From a bacterium 336/3 (GTDB lineage: Bacteria > Bacteroidota > Bacteroidia > Cytophagales > Thermonemataceae), in assembly GCA_001281695.1 (NCBI GenBank), contig LJIE01000001.1, forward strand, positions 688,107-752,106: a stretch of 64,000 bases of DNA, read 5' to 3'. The notes under the pieces are model-generated. The model was not told the origin of the DNA and ran no database searches. It saw only the letters and a list, made by a program, of their open reading frames with translations. Position 1 is the first letter of the stretch. Each line of letters begins with the position of its first letter. The position numbers and the translations under genes were made by a program. This document shows, in pieces, positions 31,952 to 43,351 of the stretch.

Positions 31952-33304
31952 TTATTTTCTAACTCTTTGATGAACAGGATAATAATTATTGATTCTGTTG
32001 GGTAATATTTTTGCCCAACCTAGATTTAAGCCTTTGTATTGCATCAAAGCCCAACCTTTTATTGGGGTATCTATTGTAAAATCTTGTTTACGAAGATATT
32101 GCATGGCTTGTTCGTAGCTTAACTCCAAACGAGAGATATTAGCATTTACGAGATTTGTCATGGCTAAATCATGGCTGGGAATAAAATCATTTTGTTTTAA
32201 CTCACCCACTTGTAAACTAGTATGCTTGATGTAAGCTGTTCCAGCTATTTGACTAATGCTTTGTGTATGATGTTCTTGTAATAAAAATATTTGATTTTTA
32301 TAAGTATAAAATTGATGATTTTCAGGAATGTTTATCCAATTTTTGAATATATCTACTTGTTTTTTAGGCAAAAGAGTAAAAATATTCTTTTTGGTTTTTG
32401 AGTGAGTATTATTGTTGCCCGTTTTTTGTAAACAAGCAATAAAAAAGCCTTCTCCTTGTAAAAGATGAGGAAAGAAACGATAAGCAAAAATATCATCAAG
32501 ACTTGATTCCTTAATTCCTAAATCATGTTCTAGAGGTATCTTTATACTTTTACAATGATGATTTTTAACCAACCAAGCCAAATTTTCTTCATTTTCTTGG
32601 GTGTTGTATGTACAAGTGCTATAAACCAAAAAACCACTTGGTTTTAAAGCAGGTAAAACATCTGCTAAAATACGTTTTTGACGAGCAGCACAAAGATTTA
32701 CATTATCCAAAGACCATTCTGTAATGGCTTGAGGCTCTTTTCTAAACATACCCTCACCTGAACAAGGAGCATCTACAACAATGATGTCAAAAAAGTTTTC
32801 TAAACTGCCCCAAACCTGCGAATCCGTTTGAGTAACAATATAATTGCTATTTCCCCAACGAACAAGGTTTTCTTCTAAAATGTCAGCCCTATTTTTAATA
32901 ATTTCGTTAGCAACTAAAAGACTATCTGATGAAATAAGAGAAATAAGATGTGTACTTTTGCCACCAGGGGCAGCACTCAAATCTAACACACGAAGGGCTT
33001 TTTTGGGTAAAATATGCTCAATAACTTTTCCCAAAAACATAGAAGAAGCCTCTTGCACATAATAAGAACCTGCCCAAAAAGTGGGGTCTTCTGTAAAAGA
33101 AGGACGCTCTGAAAGATAATAACCATCTTTACACCAACTAACAGGTTTCTGATTGTCTATATAATTTTGTAATTTTTTCTGAGAATTGTAGCGAATAGAT
33201 GTAATAGGAGGGCTTTGAAGGCTATCTAAAAAACTTTGGTGCTCGTTTTCAGGAAGAATATGAGCTAATTTGTTTGTGAAATCTGCTGGAAGAGTGTTTT
33301 CCAT
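31952..33304 (-). CDS. RsmF/NOL1/NOP2/Sun-family rRNA (cytosine-C5)-methyltransferase
   Basis: This SAM-dependent RNA m5C methyltransferase is 450 residues from the ATG at 33304 (MENTLPADFTNKL). The reading frame stays open upstream, but there it runs through two tRNA genes and cannot be protein. Motif I is VLDLSAAPGGKSTHL (about 106-120), motif IV VVDAPCSGEGMF with Cys181, and motif VI YSTCTYN with catalytic Cys231. A C-terminal domain with GWALMQYKGLNLGWAK and NRINNYYPV resembles the RsmF-type substrate domain. The target is probably 16S rRNA; the exact cytosine is inferred. Confidence 0.9.
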   Translation of the reverse strand: MENTLPADFTNKLAHILPENEHQSFLDSLQSPPITSIRYNSQKKLQNYIDNQKPVSWCKDGYYLSERPSFTEDPTFWAGSYYVQEASSMFLGKVIEHILPKKALRVLDLSAAPGGKSTHLISLISSDSLLVANEIIKNRADILEENLVRWGNSNYIVTQTDSQVWGSLENFFDIIVVDAPCSGEGMFRKEPQAITEWSLDNVNLCAARQKRILADVLPALKPSGFLVYSTCTYNTQENEENLAWLVKNHHCKSIKIPLEHDLGIKESSLDDIFAYRFFPHLLQGEGFFIACLQKTGNNNTHSKTKKNIFTLLPKKQVDIFKNWINIPENHQFYTYKNQIFLLQEHHTQSISQIAGTAYIKHTSLQVGELKQNDFIPSHDLAMTNLVNANISRLELSYEQAMQYLRKQDFTIDTPIKGWALMQYKGLNLGWAKILPNRINNYYPVHQRVRK

Positions 33305-33366
33305 ACCAAAAGCCTTTAAAGTACAAAACCTTACAGGTGGTAGCCTATAAGGTTTTTTGATTTTTG

Positions 33367-33441
33367 TGGGAGTTGAGGGATTCGAACCCCCGACCCTCTG
33401 CTTGTAAGGCAGATGCTCTGAACCAGCTGAGCTAAACTCCC
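33367..33441 (-). tRNA. tRNA-Val (anticodon TAC), copy 2
   Basis: A 75-base cloverleaf on the minus strand. Acceptor GGGAGTT pairs with AACTCCC. The D stem is GCTC/GAGC, the anticodon loop CTTACAA, and the T arm GGGGG-TTCGAAT-CCCTC. The CCA end is not encoded. It is nine bases downstream of copy 1 and identical except for the third acceptor pair (G-C here, A-T there). Confidence 0.95.
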
Positions 33442-33450
33442 GAAGGTTTG

Positions 33451-33525
33451 TGGAAGTTGAGGGATTCGAACCCCCGACCCTCTGCTTGTAAGGCAGATGC
33501 TCTGAACCAGCTGAGCTAAACTTCC
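33451..33525 (-). tRNA. tRNA-Val (anticodon TAC), copy 1
   Basis: A 75-base cloverleaf with acceptor GGAAGTT / AACTTCC and the same D, anticodon and T arms as its neighbour. It is first in the tandem pair, about six bases after the predicted transcription start of the promoter at 33538-33569. Confidence 0.95.
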
Positions 33526-33537
33526 GAAATAGGACTG

Positions 33538-33569
33538 CAAATATAGGAGTCCTATTTTTTATTTGCAAA
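33538..33569 (-). promoter_or_regulatory. promoter for the tRNA-Val pair
   Basis: On the minus strand: TTTG (33566-33569), a 20-base spacer, and TATATTTG (33538-33545). This is a near-consensus Bacteroidota promoter. The -7 element is identical to that of the tRNA-Ser promoter at 52495. A 10-bp inverted repeat (33527-33536 / 33548-33557) surrounds the -7 element. Confidence 0.72.
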
Positions 33570-35152: not shown

Positions 35153-36157
35153 ATGAAGAGAATACTAATACTTATTTCCTTTTTATTATTAAGCTATTTA
35201 AGCCAAGGGCAAATCTCAGCACGAAAATATACGATTCAAATCCTACGTATTTACTCGCCTGAGCATGCGTTGCTTTTAGATAAATATTATAAAACCAACT
35301 CTATTGTTCATTTGCCAAGTGCTACCATCAATATTGGTAGGCATTTAGACTTTATGGCGTATCTAACAGATACAACACATAGGGATGTGATTATTCATGA
35401 AATTCCATTGATGATTCATGAAATTTACCATGATTATTCACATAGAGGAGCTTATGGATTTTTAGAAAAAAATCCAGATTCTTTCGAGCCAGGACAAAAC
35501 TACATGATATATTATTTTGATGAGAAAAGTGAAATACTTACAGATATCTATAATACATTTCCTGCTCATGAAATGGCAAAAACAGTTCCCCATTCTTTAA
35601 AAGAAGAACGATTTAAAACTTTTATTGCAGACCATAATATGGCTCTTTTGCCACAAAAAATGGGAATACATGGCTTATTGGATGAATGGAATGCATTTTA
35701 TCATCAGACTTTGATGGCATTTGAAACGAAAGAGTTCTATGAAAGAGAATCATTTCAAGAAGCTAAACATTGGGAAGGTTTTTTCTCAAATTATTATGAT
35801 TCGTATCATGCTTATGTAGAATTCAAATATTTTATTCTTAAGTATATACAATATGCAAAATACAAGCATTCTAAGATGTATGAAAAAATTATTTTGGATT
35901 CGAAAATTAAGGAAATATATAAAGAAATAGATACTCGATACAAAAAAGTCTTAGAAGATTTTGAAAAATACAAGCCTTTGGTCGCTAATTTTTTAGATAG
36001 TAAAAATATTCGTATTTCAGAAGAAATACATGATGGAAATAAGATATTGTTTATACAAGGAGTTGGCATTGAAACCTATCATCATGTTTTTCGGTTATAC
36101 CAAAAGGCACTAGAAGATGAGGAATTAAGAATGATAGATTTTCAATTGCAAAACTAA
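35153..36157 (+). CDS. exported protein with an HExxH motif, unknown family
   Basis: This 334-residue protein begins with a signal peptide (MKRILILISFLLLSYLSQGQ). I do not recognise the family. At about residues 86-97 it holds IPLMIHEIYHDYSH, in which HEIYH fits the zinc-metallopeptidase HExxH consensus. A possible third ligand is not obvious; candidates are the Glu residues around 125 (FDEKSEILTDIYNTFPAHE). The C-terminal third is Lys/Glu-rich and helical. It may be a zincin-like peptidase or a degenerate relative. It stands alone on the plus strand between gatA (divergent) and hisG. Confidence 0.6.
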   Translation: MKRILILISFLLLSYLSQGQISARKYTIQILRIYSPEHALLLDKYYKTNSIVHLPSATINIGRHLDFMAYLTDTTHRDVIIHEIPLMIHEIYHDYSHRGAYGFLEKNPDSFEPGQNYMIYYFDEKSEILTDIYNTFPAHEMAKTVPHSLKEERFKTFIADHNMALLPQKMGIHGLLDEWNAFYHQTLMAFETKEFYERESFQEAKHWEGFFSNYYDSYHAYVEFKYFILKYIQYAKYKHSKMYEKIILDSKIKEIYKEIDTRYKKVLEDFEKYKPLVANFLDSKNIRISEEIHDGNKILFIQGVGIETYHHVFRLYQKALEDEELRMIDFQLQN

Positions 36158-37106: not shown

Positions 37107-37733
37107 TTAGTATAATTTTTCAAACATAAACCCTTTTTCACTAAAATACTCTAAATATCGAGGAAGGGTATATTCTATATTCTTGGTAGCTTTTATATTG
37201 TCATGAAAAACAATTAAGCTACCATTTTGTGTATAGTTGATAGAGTTTTTTAGGCAATTTTCTGGACTGATAGTTTGGTCAAAATCATAAGAGAGTACAT
37301 CCCACATCACAATTTGATGCTCTTTGATAATATCTTTTCTTAGGTTGAAAGAAAGTTTACCATAAGGGGGGCGAAAGAAATTGCTTTTTGCTCCCTGATT
37401 TTCAATTTCTTGTTTACACAATTCTATATTTTCCAAATAAACTTTCTTGTCTGTTTTCCATGCATTGAGATGGTTGTATGTATGATTGCCTATTTGGTGT
37501 TCATTTTTTATAATATCCTGAAAAATAGTAGAATACTTTCTAATATTATCTCCAACACAAAAAAATGTAGCTTTAGCTTTGTATTGTGTTAGTAAATCAA
37601 GAATAAAAGGGGTAAGCTCTGGAATAGGACCATCATCGAACGTTAAGTAAATGGTAGGTGTGGTTTGAGGTTTTTTCCAGATAAATGAAGAAAAAATGCG
37701 TTGAAGAGTATCAGGTGTTTTATGATAACGCAT
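37107..37733 (-). CDS. polysaccharide deacetylase (NodB-type, CE4)
   Basis: CE4 enzymes remove acetyl groups from N-acetylglucosamine-containing glycans. This product is 208 residues from the ATG at 37733, one base after the phosphatase stop; an upstream ATG at 37772 would run inside that gene. Catalytic motifs are complete: YLTFDDGP (Asp pair), GNHTYNHLN (zinc histidines), FFRPPYGK, MWDVLSYDFDQ, and LIVFHDNIKAT. No clear signal peptide is visible, so it may be cytoplasmic or membrane-associated. It is last in the six-gene minus-strand operon and converges on hisG with four bases between. Confidence 0.9.
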   Translation of the reverse strand: MRYHKTPDTLQRIFSSFIWKKPQTTPTIYLTFDDGPIPELTPFILDLLTQYKAKATFFCVGDNIRKYSTIFQDIIKNEHQIGNHTYNHLNAWKTDKKVYLENIELCKQEIENQGAKSNFFRPPYGKLSFNLRKDIIKEHQIVMWDVLSYDFDQTISPENCLKNSINYTQNGSLIVFHDNIKATKNIEYTLPRYLEYFSEKGFMFEKLY

Positions 37734-37734
37734 A

Positions 37735-38940
37735 TTAAGTATTAATTTTACAAGAAAGGAAAGTAATGTCATCAGGATATGCCATTTCTTGTTTAAAATG
37801 ATTGATTTCGGCTATAATCTGACTATGAAATACTTCTAAATCTTTTTGAGAGTATTTTTGTAAACATTTGGCAATTCTTTCTTCTCCAAACTGTTCATCA
37901 TCAGCATCTATGATTTCCGATAAACCATCCGTATAAGCAAAAATAAAAAAATCATCTCTCAAGATAATCTGAGCCTCTGTAATAAAAGGTAAAGGACTAA
38001 ATATACCTAAGACAGTTGTTCCTTGATCAAGGCGTTGTAAATGATTTTGATAAGATAAAAATGGAGGGTTATGCCCTGCATTGATATAGCTAAATTGTTG
38101 ATTACTATATTGATAAGTCGCTACAAAAAAGGTAATGAAATTTTCGCCTTGAGCATTTTGTAATACTTGATAATTGAGTTCTTCAACAATTTCCTTAAGA
38201 TTATCTGTTTGTCGAGCCAATGTTCGTAAAGAAGCCTGAAAATTTGCCATCATCATGGCTGCAGCAATACCTTTGCCAGAAACATCAGCGATACAAAGCA
38301 AAAATTTATCTTTAGACATTTCAATAAAGTCATAATAGTCACCACCTACAGAGGAGTGGGGTGCATACCAAGCTGAAATTTGTAATTTTTCTGTATTAGG
38401 TAAATCTTTTGGACAAAGTCTTTGTTGCACTTTGGCTGCAATATCCAGCTCTTTTCTTAAGGCCTCCTGTTCTAATTGTTTTTGAGCTAATTTTTTATTT
38501 TCAATAGCTACAATTAAAATATTAGTAAGTGTTCGAATAAAATCGGCATCTACATCACCACCATTCATCCCTGATGCAAATACAAAAGCTAAAGGATTGG
38601 CTTTATGAAAAATAGGAATTACTATTTCAAAATCAGAAAATATATCATTAAAAATACTTTCAGAAAGTGTAGATACATTTTGTGAAGCTTGTAAGGTAAT
38701 GTTAGAAAATACATCTGAAGAAGTAGTGTTTTTACTTCCAAAACTTGTTTTACAGTTCCATACACCAAAATCATTTACCCATAAAGACATTTTACTAATA
38801 CTAAGGTTACCCCGAAGTGTAAAATTATAAATACGATACAAGAAATCCTCTGCCATGTTATTGTTAATGGCTTGAGTAACTTCTAATAACGAACTTAGAG
38901 CTAACTCTTTTCTTTGTAGTAATGATTCTGTTGAAACCAT
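37735..38940 (-). CDS. SpoIIE/RsbU-type PP2C serine/threonine phosphatase
   Basis: This 401-residue protein has an N-terminal GAF-like sensor region (about 1-160, no transmembrane span), then a short coiled segment ending QKQLEQEALRKELDIAAKVQQ. A SpoIIE phosphatase domain follows. The metal-binding residues are seen in SSVGGDYYDFIEM and LLCIADVSGKGIAAAMMMA, with YINAGHNPPF, IFAYTDGLSE and MAYPDDITFLSCKI. Such enzymes usually dephosphorylate anti-sigma antagonist proteins, but no STAS or anti-sigma gene is nearby. Its ATG overlaps the permease stop (TAATG), and the deacetylase starts one base after it. Confidence 0.92.
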   Translation of the reverse strand: MVSTESLLQRKELALSSLLEVTQAINNNMAEDFLYRIYNFTLRGNLSISKMSLWVNDFGVWNCKTSFGSKNTTSSDVFSNITLQASQNVSTLSESIFNDIFSDFEIVIPIFHKANPLAFVFASGMNGGDVDADFIRTLTNILIVAIENKKLAQKQLEQEALRKELDIAAKVQQRLCPKDLPNTEKLQISAWYAPHSSVGGDYYDFIEMSKDKFLLCIADVSGKGIAAAMMMANFQASLRTLARQTDNLKEIVEELNYQVLQNAQGENFITFFVATYQYSNQQFSYINAGHNPPFLSYQNHLQRLDQGTTVLGIFSPLPFITEAQIILRDDFFIFAYTDGLSEIIDADDEQFGEERIAKCLQKYSQKDLEVFHSQIIAEINHFKQEMAYPDDITFLSCKINT

Positions 38941-40208
38941 TATTTTACAAGGGTTTTAGGATCATAAGCATCACGTAGACCATTTCCTAGTAGATTAAAC
39001 GCTAAAACCATAATACTAATTGCTAAACTTGGGTAGAAAATCATATGGAAGCCGTTTGCTGAACCAATATAATTTTTACCTTCATAAACCATCATTCCCC
39101 AAGAAGGCATAGGTGGTTGAGCTCCTAAACCTAGAAAGCTTAAGCCTGCTTCTGTAAGAATCGCAGAAGCAAAATTAGAGCTAATAACAACAATCAGAGG
39201 ACCAAACAAATTGGGTAAAATATGTCTTGTAACAATTCTGAAATTCCCTAAGCCCAAAGCTCTTGACGCTTCTACAAATTGCTTTTCTTTGATAGACATA
39301 ATTTCTCCACGCACCAAACGAGCTATATCTACCCATGTTGTAAGCCCTACGGCAATAAAAGCAACCCAAATACCTCTACCTAATGCTAAACTAATCGCAA
39401 TAACAAGCATGATTTGAGGAATGGACCATACTACTGTCATAAACCAAGTAATGATATAGTCTATTTTTCCACCTAAAAAACCAGCTAATGAACCCAAACT
39501 TACCCCCACAAGTACCGAAATAAGTACAGCAACTAAACCAATACTTAATGAGATACGTGTTCCGAAAATTAAACGGCTTAGCATATCTCTTCCTTGTTTA
39601 TCTGTTCCCAGCCAATAAGTTCTTTCTTCTATATCATATTTTTCAAATTCTTTGATGAGGTCTGAAGAAGATATTTTTTCTATTTTTCCTTCATAATTTA
39701 CATAAATCACATAATTATCTTTTGTAAGAAATAAGGAATTATTGGTTGCTTGGGCAGCCTCTTTAATGGAATTCACATCTCCCACAAATAAAGACTTTAC
39801 AGCTGAAATAACAGGTATCTTTTGTTCTTTAATCCCTCCAAAAACCTTATAAGAAACAGTCAAATCTTGTTCATTAATTTTATAACTTTCAATAGGAATA
39901 ATAGTGTATTCACTGGGAACACCTGTAATCAATTTCTCTACAAATGTTGGAGTATGAATAGGAATATTCTTGTGTTTTTTCAATATTTTAGCTTTAAACC
40001 CTGGGGGTTTAATTTGTATATGAGGATTTCCATCATCAGCATTAGGAGTATTGTCAGGCATAATCAAATAACCTAAAAAAGCAATAATCACAGCAATTAC
40101 AACTACTCCCAAACCTATTACAGCTGAAATATTTCTAAAGAAACGTTTCCTAACATAATATGAGGGTTTATAAACGATATCTACTTCTTTCTCTTGTACA
40201 GTTTGCAT
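38940..40208 (-). CDS. ABC transporter permease of the OppC/DppC type
   Basis: This 422-residue inner-membrane permease has one N-terminal helix at about 26-50. An unusually long soluble region follows (about 51-200, IQIKPPGFKAKILKKH...YVNYEGKIEKISS), and then the OppC core. The core opens with YWLGTDKQGRDMLSRLIFGT and holds the EAA loop that contacts the ATPase: EASRALGLGNFRIVTRHILP (about 318-337). The C-terminal helix and GLRDAYDPK are typical. The partner permease, ATPases and binding protein are not adjacent, so it is an orphan subunit here. It probably works with subunits encoded elsewhere. Confidence 0.9.
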   Translation of the reverse strand: MQTVQEKEVDIVYKPSYYVRKRFFRNISAVIGLGVVVIAVIIAFLGYLIMPDNTPNADDGNPHIQIKPPGFKAKILKKHKNIPIHTPTFVEKLITGVPSEYTIIPIESYKINEQDLTVSYKVFGGIKEQKIPVISAVKSLFVGDVNSIKEAAQATNNSLFLTKDNYVIYVNYEGKIEKISSSDLIKEFEKYDIEERTYWLGTDKQGRDMLSRLIFGTRISLSIGLVAVLISVLVGVSLGSLAGFLGGKIDYIITWFMTVVWSIPQIMLVIAISLALGRGIWVAFIAVGLTTWVDIARLVRGEIMSIKEKQFVEASRALGLGNFRIVTRHILPNLFGPLIVVISSNFASAILTEAGLSFLGLGAQPPMPSWGMMVYEGKNYIGSANGFHMIFYPSLAISIMVLAFNLLGNGLRDAYDPKTLVK

Positions 40209-40212
40209 AAAA

Positions 40213-40467
40213 TTATCGACTGTTATGGGCTAATAAGCCTTCTTTGGTAGCTAAATATTGATATAAAGTATATTTTTCTTCAAATTGCTTGGTATCTATA
40301 GTAACTTCTGAATAACGGTCTGAGAAACACTTCACCCAGCCCTTATCAATCATATCTTTCAATACATTTTTCAATGTATCTTCATCTAAACCTAACTCAT
40401 CTTGAACTTTCTTAAAGCTTTCTACAAAATAAAGCTGGTCTAATACTTCAAATTCTAAGTTAGTCAT
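40213..40467 (-). CDS. small winged-helix-like hypothetical protein
   Basis: I do not recognise this 84-residue protein by name. Its pattern (LEFEVLDQLYFVESFKKVQDE, LGLDEDTLKNVLKDMIDKGW, VKCFSDRYSEVTID, LYQYLATKEGLLAHN) has the helix-helix-helix-wing look of a winged-helix domain, including the TLKNVLKDMIDKGWV stretch typical of recognition-helix regions. DNA binding is inference. It lies four bases upstream of the permease and 18 after the glycosyltransferase, inside the six-gene operon, so it might regulate it. Confidence 0.6.
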   Translation of the reverse strand: MTNLEFEVLDQLYFVESFKKVQDELGLDEDTLKNVLKDMIDKGWVKCFSDRYSEVTIDTKQFEEKYTLYQYLATKEGLLAHNSR

Positions 40468-40485
40468 AGTAAAAAATCAGATATT

Positions 40486-41607
40486 TTAAATAAAATGTGT
40501 TCTGCCTTTCCAAATATAATTTTTTTTTCTTGAAAATAAAGCAAATACCAACACATAAAAAGGATACACAACAAAAAGAAGAGGTATCCAACATAATAAC
40601 CAAATTTGCTTTAAACTAGATAATATCCAAGCCAAAAATACAAATTCTATACTAAACTTCAAACCAATTAAAACCCAAATTATATTATTGGATATCAAAA
40701 AAGGCGAGAAGTAGAGAAATACAGATAATAAATTGATAAGAAATATGAATAAAGCTAATACTTTTGGAGCCCAATTTTGGTAATGTTCCCATTTACTTGC
40801 CCATCTTTTGCGTTGTTCAAAAAAAGACTTCCAATTGTAATGTGGTGTTGTAGAAACAGTTACATTGTTAGATTTATTAAATTTTACTTTTTGAGGATAT
40901 ACTTTAGCAAATTTATGCATTAAAAACTCGTCATCCCCAGAGGCAATATTCTCAGAGCCTTTAAACCCATCTAATTCTTCAAAAATAGTTTTTTTATAAG
41001 CAATATTTGCCCCATTACACATAGTAGGTGCTTGCAAACCAATACACCCTGCCCCTGAACCTATCAGACTAGAAAATTCTAAAGCTTGCATTTTTTGAAA
41101 TATACTTTGTGTAGGCAAAAACTTAACAGAAGAACTTATGAAATAAGCATCTGTTTGTTCGTAAAATGAAGCGATGCCTTGTAACCAAGTAGATGGAAGC
41201 CTACAATCAGCATCAGTACAAATAATTAGCTCGCCTTTTGCTTGTTTAATAGCTTGGCTAATACCTCTTTTTTTAGGAGAGATGATTTCTTGAAAAACAT
41301 TGTTTGTAAGGATGTTAGCACGAATAAAACTGTTTTCTAAGAATTTTCTTATGGTTTTAGTACTATCATCTTCAGAAAAGTCATCGATAAAAATCACTTC
41401 CCATAAAGTTTTATCTAATGTTTGTTTGTCTAAATCTTTAAGGATATAAGGTAAATTTAGAGCTTCATTTCTGAATACAACAATGACTGTAAGATTTGTG
41501 TGTGTGTTTTTGAGAAGTTTATAAGAGGGCATTGTTATCCAAATGATAGAAAAAAGAATAACAAGGATAAAATAGATTGAAAAGAAGAAAAGAAATACCC
41601 AAAACAT
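40486..41607 (-). CDS. family 2 glycosyltransferase, membrane-anchored
   Basis: This 373-residue GT-A enzyme has an N-terminal helix (about 1-25) and three or so C-terminal helices (about 270-360). The catalytic region has VVFRNEALNLPYIL, VIFIDDFSEDDSTK, ICTDADCRLPSTW (DxD), and SGDDEFLMHKF with RKRWASKWEHY (QRKRW acceptor motif). It resembles processive or lipid-linked glycan synthases. The start is the ATG at 41607, whose A is the last base of the upstream TGA; the codon before it is TTG. It is preceded by a pseudo-hydrolase gene and followed by the winged-helix protein. Confidence 0.9.
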   Translation of the reverse strand: MFWVFLFFFSIYFILVILFSIIWITMPSYKLLKNTHTNLTVIVVFRNEALNLPYILKDLDKQTLDKTLWEVIFIDDFSEDDSTKTIRKFLENSFIRANILTNNVFQEIISPKKRGISQAIKQAKGELIICTDADCRLPSTWLQGIASFYEQTDAYFISSSVKFLPTQSIFQKMQALEFSSLIGSGAGCIGLQAPTMCNGANIAYKKTIFEELDGFKGSENIASGDDEFLMHKFAKVYPQKVKFNKSNNVTVSTTPHYNWKSFFEQRKRWASKWEHYQNWAPKVLALFIFLINLLSVFLYFSPFLISNNIIWVLIGLKFSIEFVFLAWILSSLKQIWLLCWIPLLFVVYPFYVLVFALFSRKKNYIWKGRTHFI

Positions 41608-42470
41608 CAAATTACACGCAATTTTAGCTCTTTAAGAAAATCAGAAATAGCTTTTTGATAAGTTTTGATATTTTTATTTTTAAGGTCTTTACTTTTATCT
41701 TTTAAATTGACTAATCTTTTCTGTATACTTCCCGATTTTTCAAATAATTGTTTGGTATGTTGATTAGGATAAGTATCATCTCTTTCCATATAAACAAATA
41801 AAGAGGGAATGGAAACTTCTTTGATATAATCATGAACATTAAACTGTTCTTCAACCAAATAACTAACTATCAAAATAGGATATAAATCTTTTAAAAAATT
41901 TTGAATAGACGTAATACCATTTTCAATAATTAAACCAGCTACTTGCATTTCTTTAGCCAATTTAGAAGCTGGGTATGCCCCTACACCTTCTCCATATACT
42001 ATAATATGGTCATAAGGTACACTGCTCTTGGTAACTAAATAGTTATATGCCATCAATGCTGACTGATACATTTTTTCGGAAGAAGCTATTTGTTTACTAC
42101 CTTCTTGTGTAATATAATTGAGTGTAAGAATATTGATACCTAAATTATTCCATGTTTTATAACGCCACAAATTTGACTCGGAATAATACATGTTATTTGT
42201 ACCATGTAAGTGGATTATCCAAATGTTTTTGTCAGAATCAGAGGGTAAAATACAAGCACTGGTATTGCCATAACTACCAGTAAGTTCTATTTTTTCATAA
42301 GTAAGTTGTAAACCTACAAGTTTATCACCAAAAAAATAGTAAGGATCATCTTTTACAATAGGAAAAGAGAGATAAGAATGCTTTTTATATAGCCAAAAGT
42401 TCGAAAACAAATAAGCTAATAGTAAAATGGAAGCTATGATGATAGTAATTTTCCTAATGGGGAAATTCAT
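41607..42470 (-). CDS. alpha/beta-hydrolase-fold protein lacking the catalytic serine
   Basis: This 287-residue protein has one N-terminal membrane helix (KITIIIASILLLAYLFSNFW) and a BEM46-like alpha/beta hydrolase fold: WIIHLHGTNNMYYSES, IIVYGEGVGAYPASKLA, and ERDDTYPNQHTKQLFE for the acid loop. At the nucleophile elbow the usual G-x-S-x-G reads GEGVG (about residue 161), with Gly in place of Ser. No clear catalytic His is seen in the Lys-rich C-terminus. It is probably non-catalytic or uses another mechanism. It is the first gene of the six-gene operon and joins GT2 by a TGATG overlap. Confidence 0.75.
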   Translation of the reverse strand: MNFPIRKITIIIASILLLAYLFSNFWLYKKHSYLSFPIVKDDPYYFFGDKLVGLQLTYEKIELTGSYGNTSACILPSDSDKNIWIIHLHGTNNMYYSESNLWRYKTWNNLGINILTLNYITQEGSKQIASSEKMYQSALMAYNYLVTKSSVPYDHIIVYGEGVGAYPASKLAKEMQVAGLIIENGITSIQNFLKDLYPILIVSYLVEEQFNVHDYIKEVSIPSLFVYMERDDTYPNQHTKQLFEKSGSIQKRLVNLKDKSKDLKNKNIKTYQKAISDFLKELKLRVI

Positions 42471-42586
42471 GGTAAAAGCTATCTAAACCTAATAAAAGTT
42501 TTGGCGAATATATAAATATTCAGGTTAACTTTCTAATATTTTAGATGAACTTTCTTATCTTGCATTATAAAAATGTCTTTTATATT

Positions 42587-43351
42587 ATGAATATCATAGA
42601 GAAAATACAGGTAAAAATTGAAGAAAACAGTGATATACCATTTGAAATTAGATATTCATTGAAAAATAATCTCTATGATATAGATTTTATATCACAAGAG
42701 TCTGCAATGCCTGTTTGTGATGTTTTTTTCGATTATATTAATCAGAGTGAAGTAACAGAATATATTGGTAGCCTAAATCTTTATTCAGAAGATGAGGGGA
42801 TTAATGGTACAAATAACTGGGATTTGGCCAAATTAGGAGGAAAACCTAAAAACATTTTTAAGAATCTTAAAAAATTAGTTTTTCCTTTGAATACAACGAA
42901 TCATAATCGAGTGATTATCACAGGTAATGACGATTATGAAGAGAATGGTATCATTGGGCAGGTAATGAAGAAAATGCCAGTATTAGAATATTTACAACTG
43001 CCATCAGCACCCTCTAATAACTTTTTTGAACAAAAATTATCTATCATCCATTTAAAAATACAAACAGGTTTTGCACATCAAAATTTTATTGAAAATTTAG
43101 CAAAAACAAGTGTTTTTGAGCATTTGGAGACTTTAGAGTTTTGGGATTATTCAGAGTTTTATATGGAAAATTATGAACAATATTGTACACCTTTAGAGGC
43201 TTATATCCAATTATTTGGTTCTACTCATTTACCAAAACTCAAAAAAGTAATTTTACATAATACTCTTTTAAGCAAAGAAATTCAGCAAAAACTCGAATCT
43301 TTACCTTTATATTTGCAACTCGAAATTTTTTTAGTGATTAATAAATCTTAA
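42587..43351 (+). CDS. hypothetical protein, possibly leucine-rich-repeat-like
   Basis: This cytoplasmic protein has 254 residues from the ATG at 42587 (MNIIEKIQVKIEENSD); a longer frame from 42545 adds 14 hydrophobic residues and is less likely. I do not recognise the family. Spaced leucine-containing segments (FKNLKKLVFPLNT, MPVLEYLQLPSAP, LSIIHLKIQTGFAH, FEHLETLEFWDYS, LPKLKKVILHNTL) suggest an irregular LRR solenoid. Such proteins are sometimes clustered with WGR or related modules, but no such gene is here. It is followed 11 bases on by the DUF3109 gene. Confidence 0.6.
   Translation: MNIIEKIQVKIEENSDIPFEIRYSLKNNLYDIDFISQESAMPVCDVFFDYINQSEVTEYIGSLNLYSEDEGINGTNNWDLAKLGGKPKNIFKNLKKLVFPLNTTNHNRVIITGNDDYEENGIIGQVMKKMPVLEYLQLPSAPSNNFFEQKLSIIHLKIQTGFAHQNFIENLAKTSVFEHLETLEFWDYSEFYMENYEQYCTPLEAYIQLFGSTHLPKLKKVILHNTLLSKEIQQKLESLPLYLQLEIFLVINKS

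Follow-up and report, generated by a model that had tools for sequence, protein, structure and literature searches.

A conserved gene block of glycan enzymes, a PP2C phosphatase and an OppC-type permease subunit in a Thermonemataceae bacterium and its relatives

Phosphatases of the RsbU/RsbP type combine a sensor, a helical linker that transmits the sensor signal and a PP2C domain, according to one report, which also mentions an RsbQ-RsbP module (PMC12143880). According to two further reports, such phosphatase systems can govern biofilm output, as do SypE-SypA at the syp polysaccharide locus of Vibrio fischeri, where SypE has its own kinase and receiver domains and inhibition is credited to the kinase domain (PMC3610818), and SiaA-SiaB-SiaC-SiaD of Pseudomonas aeruginosa, a partner switch controlling biofilm (PMC7647112). 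Here we describe a six-gene block (37107-42470, minus strand) in a 64,000-nucleotide stretch of the genome of bacterium 336/3 (Cytophagales; Thermonemataceae), hereafter the window, in which a phosphatase of this kind lies among genes for glycan enzymes, a small winged-helix protein, a pseudo-hydrolase and an OppC-type ATP-binding cassette (ABC) permease subunit. The explanation that we prefer, and to which we would give about an even chance, takes the block for an old envelope-glycan unit that includes a dedicated PP2C phosphatase and a winged-helix adaptor, with OppC as a passenger and the pseudo-hydrolase as a lineage-specific addition.

Open reading frame (ORF) calling over the window places six consecutive genes on the minus strand from 42470 down to 37107. 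In transcription order they encode a pseudo alpha/beta-hydrolase of 287 amino acids, hereafter Hyd (42470-41607), a GT2 glycosyltransferase (41610-40486, with a TTG start as listed), a winged-helix protein of 84 amino acids (40467-40213), the OppC-type permease subunit (40208-38940), a SpoIIE/RsbU-type PP2C phosphatase (38940-37735) and a NodB-type (CE4) polysaccharide deacetylase (37772-37107). The tight packing reported in the original prediction, a reading made from the letters alone, is confirmed: neighbouring genes overlap slightly or are separated by no more than 18 bases. The prediction's family names for the GT2, OppC, SpoIIE and NodB proteins are correct by Pfam. As listed, Hyd and GT2 overlap by 4 bases, gaps of 18 and 4 bases lie on either side of the winged-helix gene, and the OppC/PP2C and PP2C/NodB overlaps are 1 and 38 bases. 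An alternative GT2 ATG at 41607 has one base in common with the Hyd stop (TGATG), and an internal ATG at 37733, one base past the PP2C stop, is likelier to be the NodB start than the one listed. The operon is bounded on both sides, since on one flank a convergent gene, which from its sequence we take to be HisG-like, stops 4 bases short of the block, and on the other a divergent one begins at 42545. A scan gave 28 promoter-like sites against 29.8 in shuffled sequences, hence no excess; five terminator-like sites turned up, all of them on the strand opposite to the operon. The six genes are presumably co-transcribed as one operon.

Gene order was compared across the 148 genomes of the order, 95 of which hold an OppC relative at an expectation value (E) of 1e-30. 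We mapped 60 order loci, namely 59 hand-picked for spread (58 of the 95 genomes) and one from a metagenome-assembled genome of the Cytophagaceae (L031); a Krumholzibacteriota locus (L032), where OppC stands without its usual neighbours, was left out of this count, and four Opp operons of the ordinary kind (L068, L069, L070, L071) were kept in it. Search thresholds differ between genes (1e-30 for OppC and OppB, 1e-75 for PP2C, 1e-5 for the winged-helix family), and the maps come from simple ORF calling with profile matches, by which diverged copies of the small winged-helix gene may be missed. The four core genes, GT2, winged-helix, OppC and PP2C, occur together at 28 of the 60 loci; the winged-helix gene lies directly before OppC at 35, PP2C directly after it at 39, and GT2 no more than three genes upstream at 44. 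At L031 the core is present with PP2C as two ORFs and a NodB-GT2 pair downstream. The core order is found again where OppC is down to about 50% identity. NodB directly follows PP2C at 7 loci and is found downstream on the same strand at 19, and a divergent RuvC gene lies upstream of the block at 18. Among the 148 genomes 61 hold both the winged-helix gene and OppC, and in 56 of these the former is immediately upstream of the latter (the two are on different contigs in the other five); PP2C directly follows OppC in 58 of the 85 genomes with both. Genes flanking the window's block served as controls: HisG, metP, g268 and Flip are never near OppC at the 60 loci, rpsA and gatA once each, and DUF3109 twice, at L012 and L013 of the window's own genus.

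The block is thus a real conserved gene set and not a product of chance proximity, its core order recurring in distant relatives while the flanking controls reach at most two loci. Conservation of all six genes is another matter: the full set is found in the window and at L012 and L013 (2 of 60 loci), so that only the core is widely kept. Elsewhere in the window's family, NodB is missing from L015 and L016, and L017 is cut by a contig end. In the class sample, 128 of 198 genomes have a match to the OppC profile at 1e-60. Loci were hand-picked, 20 from the 24 genomes with winged-helix matches and then 20 from the 128 with OppC matches. GT2 lies just upstream of OppC, with or without an intervening winged-helix gene, at 23 of the 26 OppC loci thus obtained; LPG_synthase_TM precedes GT2 at 18 of them, a divergent RuvC is present at 16, and PP2C directly follows OppC at 5.

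In relatives the block takes in more glycan genes, and by these sequence matches an envelope-glycan role is supported. A flippase-like LPG_synthase_TM gene lies upstream at 11 of the 60 order loci, Wzy or Wzz is found at 11 and a Wzx-like gene at 12, and the genes that join include Wzy_C, Wzz, Polysacc_synt (Wzx-like), GT4 and a second GT2. A scan of five LPG_synthase_TM neighbours assigned two of them to the general flippase-like model TIGR00374 only and gave no match at E 0.01 for the other three.

The two glycan enzymes of the window itself retain the expected residues. The GT2 protein (Glycos_transf_2, 5.2e-17 in Pfam) is of the QxxRW type and has C-terminal membrane segments, as read by eye; D77, D133, D135, GDD 225-227, Q266, R269 and W270 are invariant in all 69 aligned sequences, including the window's. 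It was tried as the poly-N-acetylglucosamine (poly-GlcNAc; Pga/Ica) synthase PgaC/IcaA and rejected at 36.4 bits against a cut-off of 422.3, the GT2 proteins of three class relatives scoring 67.6 to 74.9 on the same model; a hopanoid-glycolipid role (HpnI/HpnB) was likewise rejected, at a score far under the curated cut-offs. The exported or recycled amino-sugar polymer of the original prediction therefore finds no backing, nothing in our searches identifying one. The CE4 family, or NodB homology domain, is marked by the motifs TFDD, HTxxH, RPPYG and FHD. In the NodB protein (Polysacc_deac_1, 1.3e-29 in Pfam) these catalytic motifs are intact, with TFDDGP and FHD in 20 of 20 aligned sequences, RPPYG in 19 of 20 and HTxxH in the 18 of 20 shown. 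Its nearest solved chain is 5o6y, a peptidoglycan GlcNAc deacetylase (E 5.3e-26).

The phosphatase matches SpoIIE (2.3e-38 in Pfam), and its aspartates D201, D219, D338, D390 and D391 are invariant in 27 members. A structure model (predicted local distance difference test, pLDDT, 88.6) comprises an N-terminal alpha/beta domain, a continuous helix at 132-174 and the PP2C domain. The top fold match is SiaA-PP2C (6k4e; Z 26.8, root-mean-square deviation, rmsd, 2.9, 241 residues aligned at 20% identity), and the RsbU domain of Rv1364c reaches Z 25.1; the matches listed span mainly residues 176-401, those to RssB reaching into the linker (model residues 127-400). GAF_2 matches the N-domain weakly, in 3 of the 27 members with a best E of 7e-4, which suggests that this domain may be GAF-like. 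With its catalytic aspartates and, in the model, a domain in the sensor position followed by a helical linker, the protein is of the SpoIIE/RsbU type.

Candidates for the partners of such a phosphatase are present elsewhere in the window's genome, which encodes two STAS proteins and, among 11 HATPase_c_2 matches, two small RsbW-like HATPases, the other nine lying in larger open frames. A STAS gene and a small HATPase gene are adjacent at C1:3365.5 kb; the second small HATPase lies at C1:759 kb and the other STAS gene at C1:2546 kb. In both STAS proteins the position that we take, from RsbV/SpoIIAA and by eye, to be that of antagonist phosphorylation is a serine. The HATPase at C1:759 kb (L124:7926-8369, minus strand) lies about 7 kb past the end of the window; an ORF of 1100 amino acids separates it from the second OppA gene (L124:11724-13457), about 3.4 kb away. 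By analogy with the systems described above, glycan output may be controlled by partner switching.

OppC is the member of the block whose place in it is most readily questioned. The protein matches BPD_transp_1 (8.5e-29) and OppC_N (2.7e-7) in Pfam and aligns to a solved OppC, 8z21 (E 2.2e-52); E313, G319, H329, P332 and N333, in what is presumably the coupling loop, are invariant in 38 aligned sequences. Between TM1, the first transmembrane segment, and the core runs a variable extra loop of about 125 residues that opens with the conserved stretch GYLIMPDxTPNANDG, and members of this type measure 391 to 495 amino acids. PF00528 has two matches in the whole of the window's genome (99.3% complete; 4.7 Mb in 13 contigs), namely this OppC and an OppB, so that each is the only one of its kind. 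OppB lies at C1:507.5 kb, 218 kb from OppC, and searches of the same genome for OppA and OppDF found two OppA genes, at C1:285 kb and C1:763 kb, and one fused double ATPase, OppDF, at C1:2190 kb. The partner genes that the original prediction had proposed to look for thus exist, all of them unlinked to the block: the Opp transporter is complete, its permeases are single-copy and its genes are spread over five places.

OppC follows this unlinked OppB from genome to genome. OppB is found in 90 of the 148 order genomes at the threshold; 88 genomes have both permeases, 7 only OppC, 2 only OppB and 51 neither, so that both are present in 88 of the 97 with either (Fisher 2e-29, not corrected for kinship). 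The corresponding values for OppC with the winged-helix gene and with PP2C are 5e-4 and 4e-4, equally uncorrected. Six of the seven genomes with OppC only belong to a small-genome family (f22), the seventh being G120, and in the f22 genome that was mapped (G044, locus L071) an OppB cluster member adjoins OppC, which shows that the single-sequence OppB query misses some OppB.

The rest of the block, in turn, survives where OppC is gone. Eighteen order genomes have the winged-helix gene and no OppC at the threshold; PP2C is directly next in 13 of them and at 446 bases in G139, no PP2C was found in three, and it lies elsewhere in G105. The 14 genomes in which PP2C follows the winged-helix gene span five families (f5, f9, f10, f13 and f20), and PP2C is present in 34 order genomes without OppC. 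At 13 OppC-less order loci with a GT2-PP2C block, NodB directly follows PP2C in nine (L077, L078, L132, L133, L134, L136, L137, L142 and L143), lies further downstream in L135 and is not seen in L129, L130 and L131; at L090, a class locus, GT2, winged-helix and PP2C genes are followed by Wzy and Wzz and there is no NodB. In a quick tree of PP2C (52 rows), from which PP2C ORFs of at most 350 amino acids were left out (L028, L031 and L041), OppC changes state seven times, at least three of them on starred branches. This tree cannot tell gain of OppC from its loss, and the wide occurrence of GT2-OppC in the class argues for loss. OppC would therefore be a co-transcribed passenger of the glycan block that is functionally tied to OppB. 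The original prediction had joined all six genes in a single regulated pathway; its permease part is not supported, OppC following OppB and the winged-helix-PP2C pair being kept without OppC in five families, and the remaining part is partly supported, glycan genes and a signalling phosphatase recurring together.

Several observations weigh against a glycan unit of this kind with OppC as its passenger. There is no direct sign of what the glycan is. Pfam finds no kinase or STAS gene within the block, the RsbW-like and STAS genes being unlinked to it, so that the cognate antagonist and kinase of an RsbU-RsbV-RsbW module are not encoded with PP2C. OppC has none of its three neighbours at 11 of the 60 order loci; four of these are the ordinary Opp operons, and seven are not (L038, L044, L048, L052, L055, L056 and L067). 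PP2C is far from OppC in 27 of the 85 genomes with both, on the same contig in 5 and on other contigs in 22. The PP2C tree has only three independent supported pairs, among which OppB goes the same way in three of three, a number too small to be significant (p 0.25), and family f20 falls in three places on it, which may inflate the seven changes. The co-occurrence figures take no account of kinship. G105, counted as lacking OppC, keeps a strongly diverged copy (L138:5664-6779, minus strand; 126 bits with the cluster profile) beside the winged-helix and GT2 genes; this copy may be decaying, and because it remains there G105 is not a clean case of loss. Finally, GT2 adjoins OppC rather often for a mere passenger (at 23 of the 26 hand-picked class loci), and in most lineages the two could be functionally tied.

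That last point also speaks for one integrated circuit of sensing and recycling, in which Opp would bring in muropeptides or oligosaccharide fragments, NodB and GT2 would process the glycan or rebuild it, and PP2C would read the signal thus imported. The frequent position of PP2C directly after OppC and the single-copy permeases fit such a circuit as well. We nevertheless hold it to be doubtful, if worth keeping in mind, because the presence of OppC follows OppB far more than it follows its neighbours, GT2, winged-helix and PP2C (often with NodB) stay when OppC is gone, and OppC stands apart from all three neighbours at seven order loci. Another alternative is neutral synteny, that is, a slowly decaying ancestral order near ruvC in which most members are functionally unlinked and which is kept because shared promoters and overlaps are costly to break. 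The divergent RuvC gene, which adjoins the block without evident link at 18 of 60 order and 16 of 26 class loci, and the way in which members drop out one by one speak for this. On the other hand, the genes that flank the block in the window hardly ever accompany OppC elsewhere, meaning that general synteny has decayed and the core has remained tight, and the order in which NodB and additional glycan genes are added to the block differs. We regard neutral synteny as unlikely.

The 84-residue winged-helix protein reaches the cut-off of no Pfam or NCBIfam model; over 36 members the best profile E-values are 0.0009 (Pfam) and 4.7e-5 (NCBIfam), from one to five members each. The family is found in 79 of the 148 order genomes and in 24 of the 198 of the class sample. 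By its AlphaFold2 model (mean pLDDT 87) the protein should adopt a minimal winged-helix fold of the MarR-like kind: against MarR 1jgs the TM-score is 0.75 on query length with an rmsd of 2.7, and the best Foldseek E is 5e-3, no match reaching 0.001 or better. Across the 36 aligned members F14, A73, K75, G77 and L78 are invariant and H81 and N82 nearly so, within a conserved tail A-T/S-K-x-G-L-x-x-H-N whose position 74 is threonine or serine in all 36. All 36 are acidic, with a median net charge of -7 (range -9 to -3) over 84 reference columns, and the third helix carries -3 to +2, zero or below in 32. Compared with a MarR-type regulator the protein thus has the fold, as modelled, and neither membership of a curated profile nor a basic DNA-reading helix; its acidity, its third helix and the lack of a profile over cut-off led us to reject a DNA-binding role. 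It is probably a protein-protein adaptor of the glycan unit. In the class the winged-helix gene also occurs without adjoining OppC or PP2C, beside RecO at L082 (by Pfam) and L084 (by eye), a phosphomethylpyrimidine kinase-like gene at L085 (by Pfam), L086 and L087 (both by eye) and a sugar-kinase-like gene at L088 (by eye), an argument against a function confined to this operon. It lies directly before those genes in other orders, at L082:7066-7338, L084:6958-7224, L085:6774-7055 and L088:7223-7483.

Two further explanations centre on this protein and its companion phosphatase. PP2C and the winged-helix protein might form the operon's own transcription switch, PP2C dephosphorylating or releasing a DNA-binding regulator; the presence of PP2C in 75 of the 79 order genomes with the winged-helix family (Fisher 1.8e-6, not corrected for kinship) would be expected of such a pair, as would the MarR-like fold of the model. 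The acidic character of all 36 members, a third helix that is not basic in 32, the absence of a DNA-binding family at cut-off for the window's protein and its occurrence beside other genes in the class make this very improbable in our view. It is a long shot, though a slightly better one, that the protein is a new kind of phospho-switch target and adaptor: PP2C would dephosphorylate the tail serine or threonine, whereupon the winged-helix protein would bind and switch GT2, controlling the envelope glycan post-translationally without STAS. The tail residue may be a mere helix cap, and in other orders the winged-helix gene occurs without an adjoining PP2C.

Hyd, the first gene, has no Pfam or NCBIfam family above cut-off, and its profile matches hydrolase-type chains in the PDB (E 2.7e-10); an N-terminal membrane segment was read by eye. 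Its label as a pseudo-hydrolase is apt, because the nucleophile elbow reads GEGVG or GEGIG, with glycine for the serine of GxSxG, in five of five aligned sequences. Clustered homologues occur at 4 of the 60 order loci, every one in the window's family, and Hyd is a lineage-specific addition to the block. As Hyd sits in the operon we considered an RsbQ-RsbP-like arrangement, in which a hydrolase activates the phosphatase; it is not favoured, the clustered homologues being confined to that family and without the nucleophile.

Around the block, the divergent gene (42545-43351, plus strand) encodes a protein of 268 amino acids with no family above cut-off and a weak STM4015 family match. On the other side a 334-residue orphan (35153-36157, plus strand) has a signal-like start and an HEIYHDYSH stretch, with no Pfam match at E 0.1. 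A tandem pair of tRNA-Val (tac) genes lies at 33366-33525 (minus strand), and an ORF that runs through them (31952-33568), repeating one peptide stretch, is most likely an artefact of tRNA read as protein.

Taking the block as an envelope-glycan unit, the membrane GT2 would build or extend a glycan or glycolipid, and the CE4 enzyme would deacetylate an N-acetyl sugar of it. PP2C, through its GAF-like sensor and helical linker, would set the phosphorylation state of a partner, probably a STAS protein that antagonises an RsbW-type kinase whose gene is unlinked to the block, and thereby tune glycan output as SypE-SypA and SiaA-SiaC do in other bacteria. The acidic winged-helix protein would act as adaptor, and OppC would ride along in the transcript and work with the dispersed OppB, OppDF and OppA. 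What looked like a mixed operon can now be resolved into parts, the permease being expected to behave like OppB, and the phosphatase and the 84-residue protein to go with the glycan enzymes. The block, which often adjoins ruvC, has been kept as a unit in distant members of a bacterial class. If OppC is indeed a passenger, inferring function from operon membership fails for it here.

By its sequences the block consists of known families and one small family to which no Pfam or NCBIfam model corresponds at cut-off. In the titles and abstract openings of the papers listed for the block, for Opp genes in Bacteroidota (10 of 132) and for partner switching in Bacteroidetes we found no description of the block or of the 84-residue family. 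It resembles RsbU/RsbP-type systems in the layout of its phosphatase and in the RsbW-like and STAS proteins of the genome, and differs in that PP2C does not adjoin rsbV/rsbW-like genes and no sigma-factor gene lies in the block. Unlike SypE-SypA, its kinase and STAS candidates are unlinked, its sensor appears GAF-like, and a winged-helix gene and OppC are present. Its PP2C domain has SiaA as the top fold match, yet the block is without SiaB, SiaC or a diguanylate cyclase, and the N-terminal part of the phosphatase differs. NodB shares the intact motifs of the CE4 peptidoglycan and chitin deacetylases (PgdA, NodB) and has peptidoglycan deacetylases as its nearest solved chains, although it reaches the cut-off of no equivalog model. 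OppC, finally, belongs by its match to 8z21 to the family found in Opp/Dpp peptide ABC importers and has their coupling loop, and departs from them in its extra loop and in the dispersal of the window's Opp genes.

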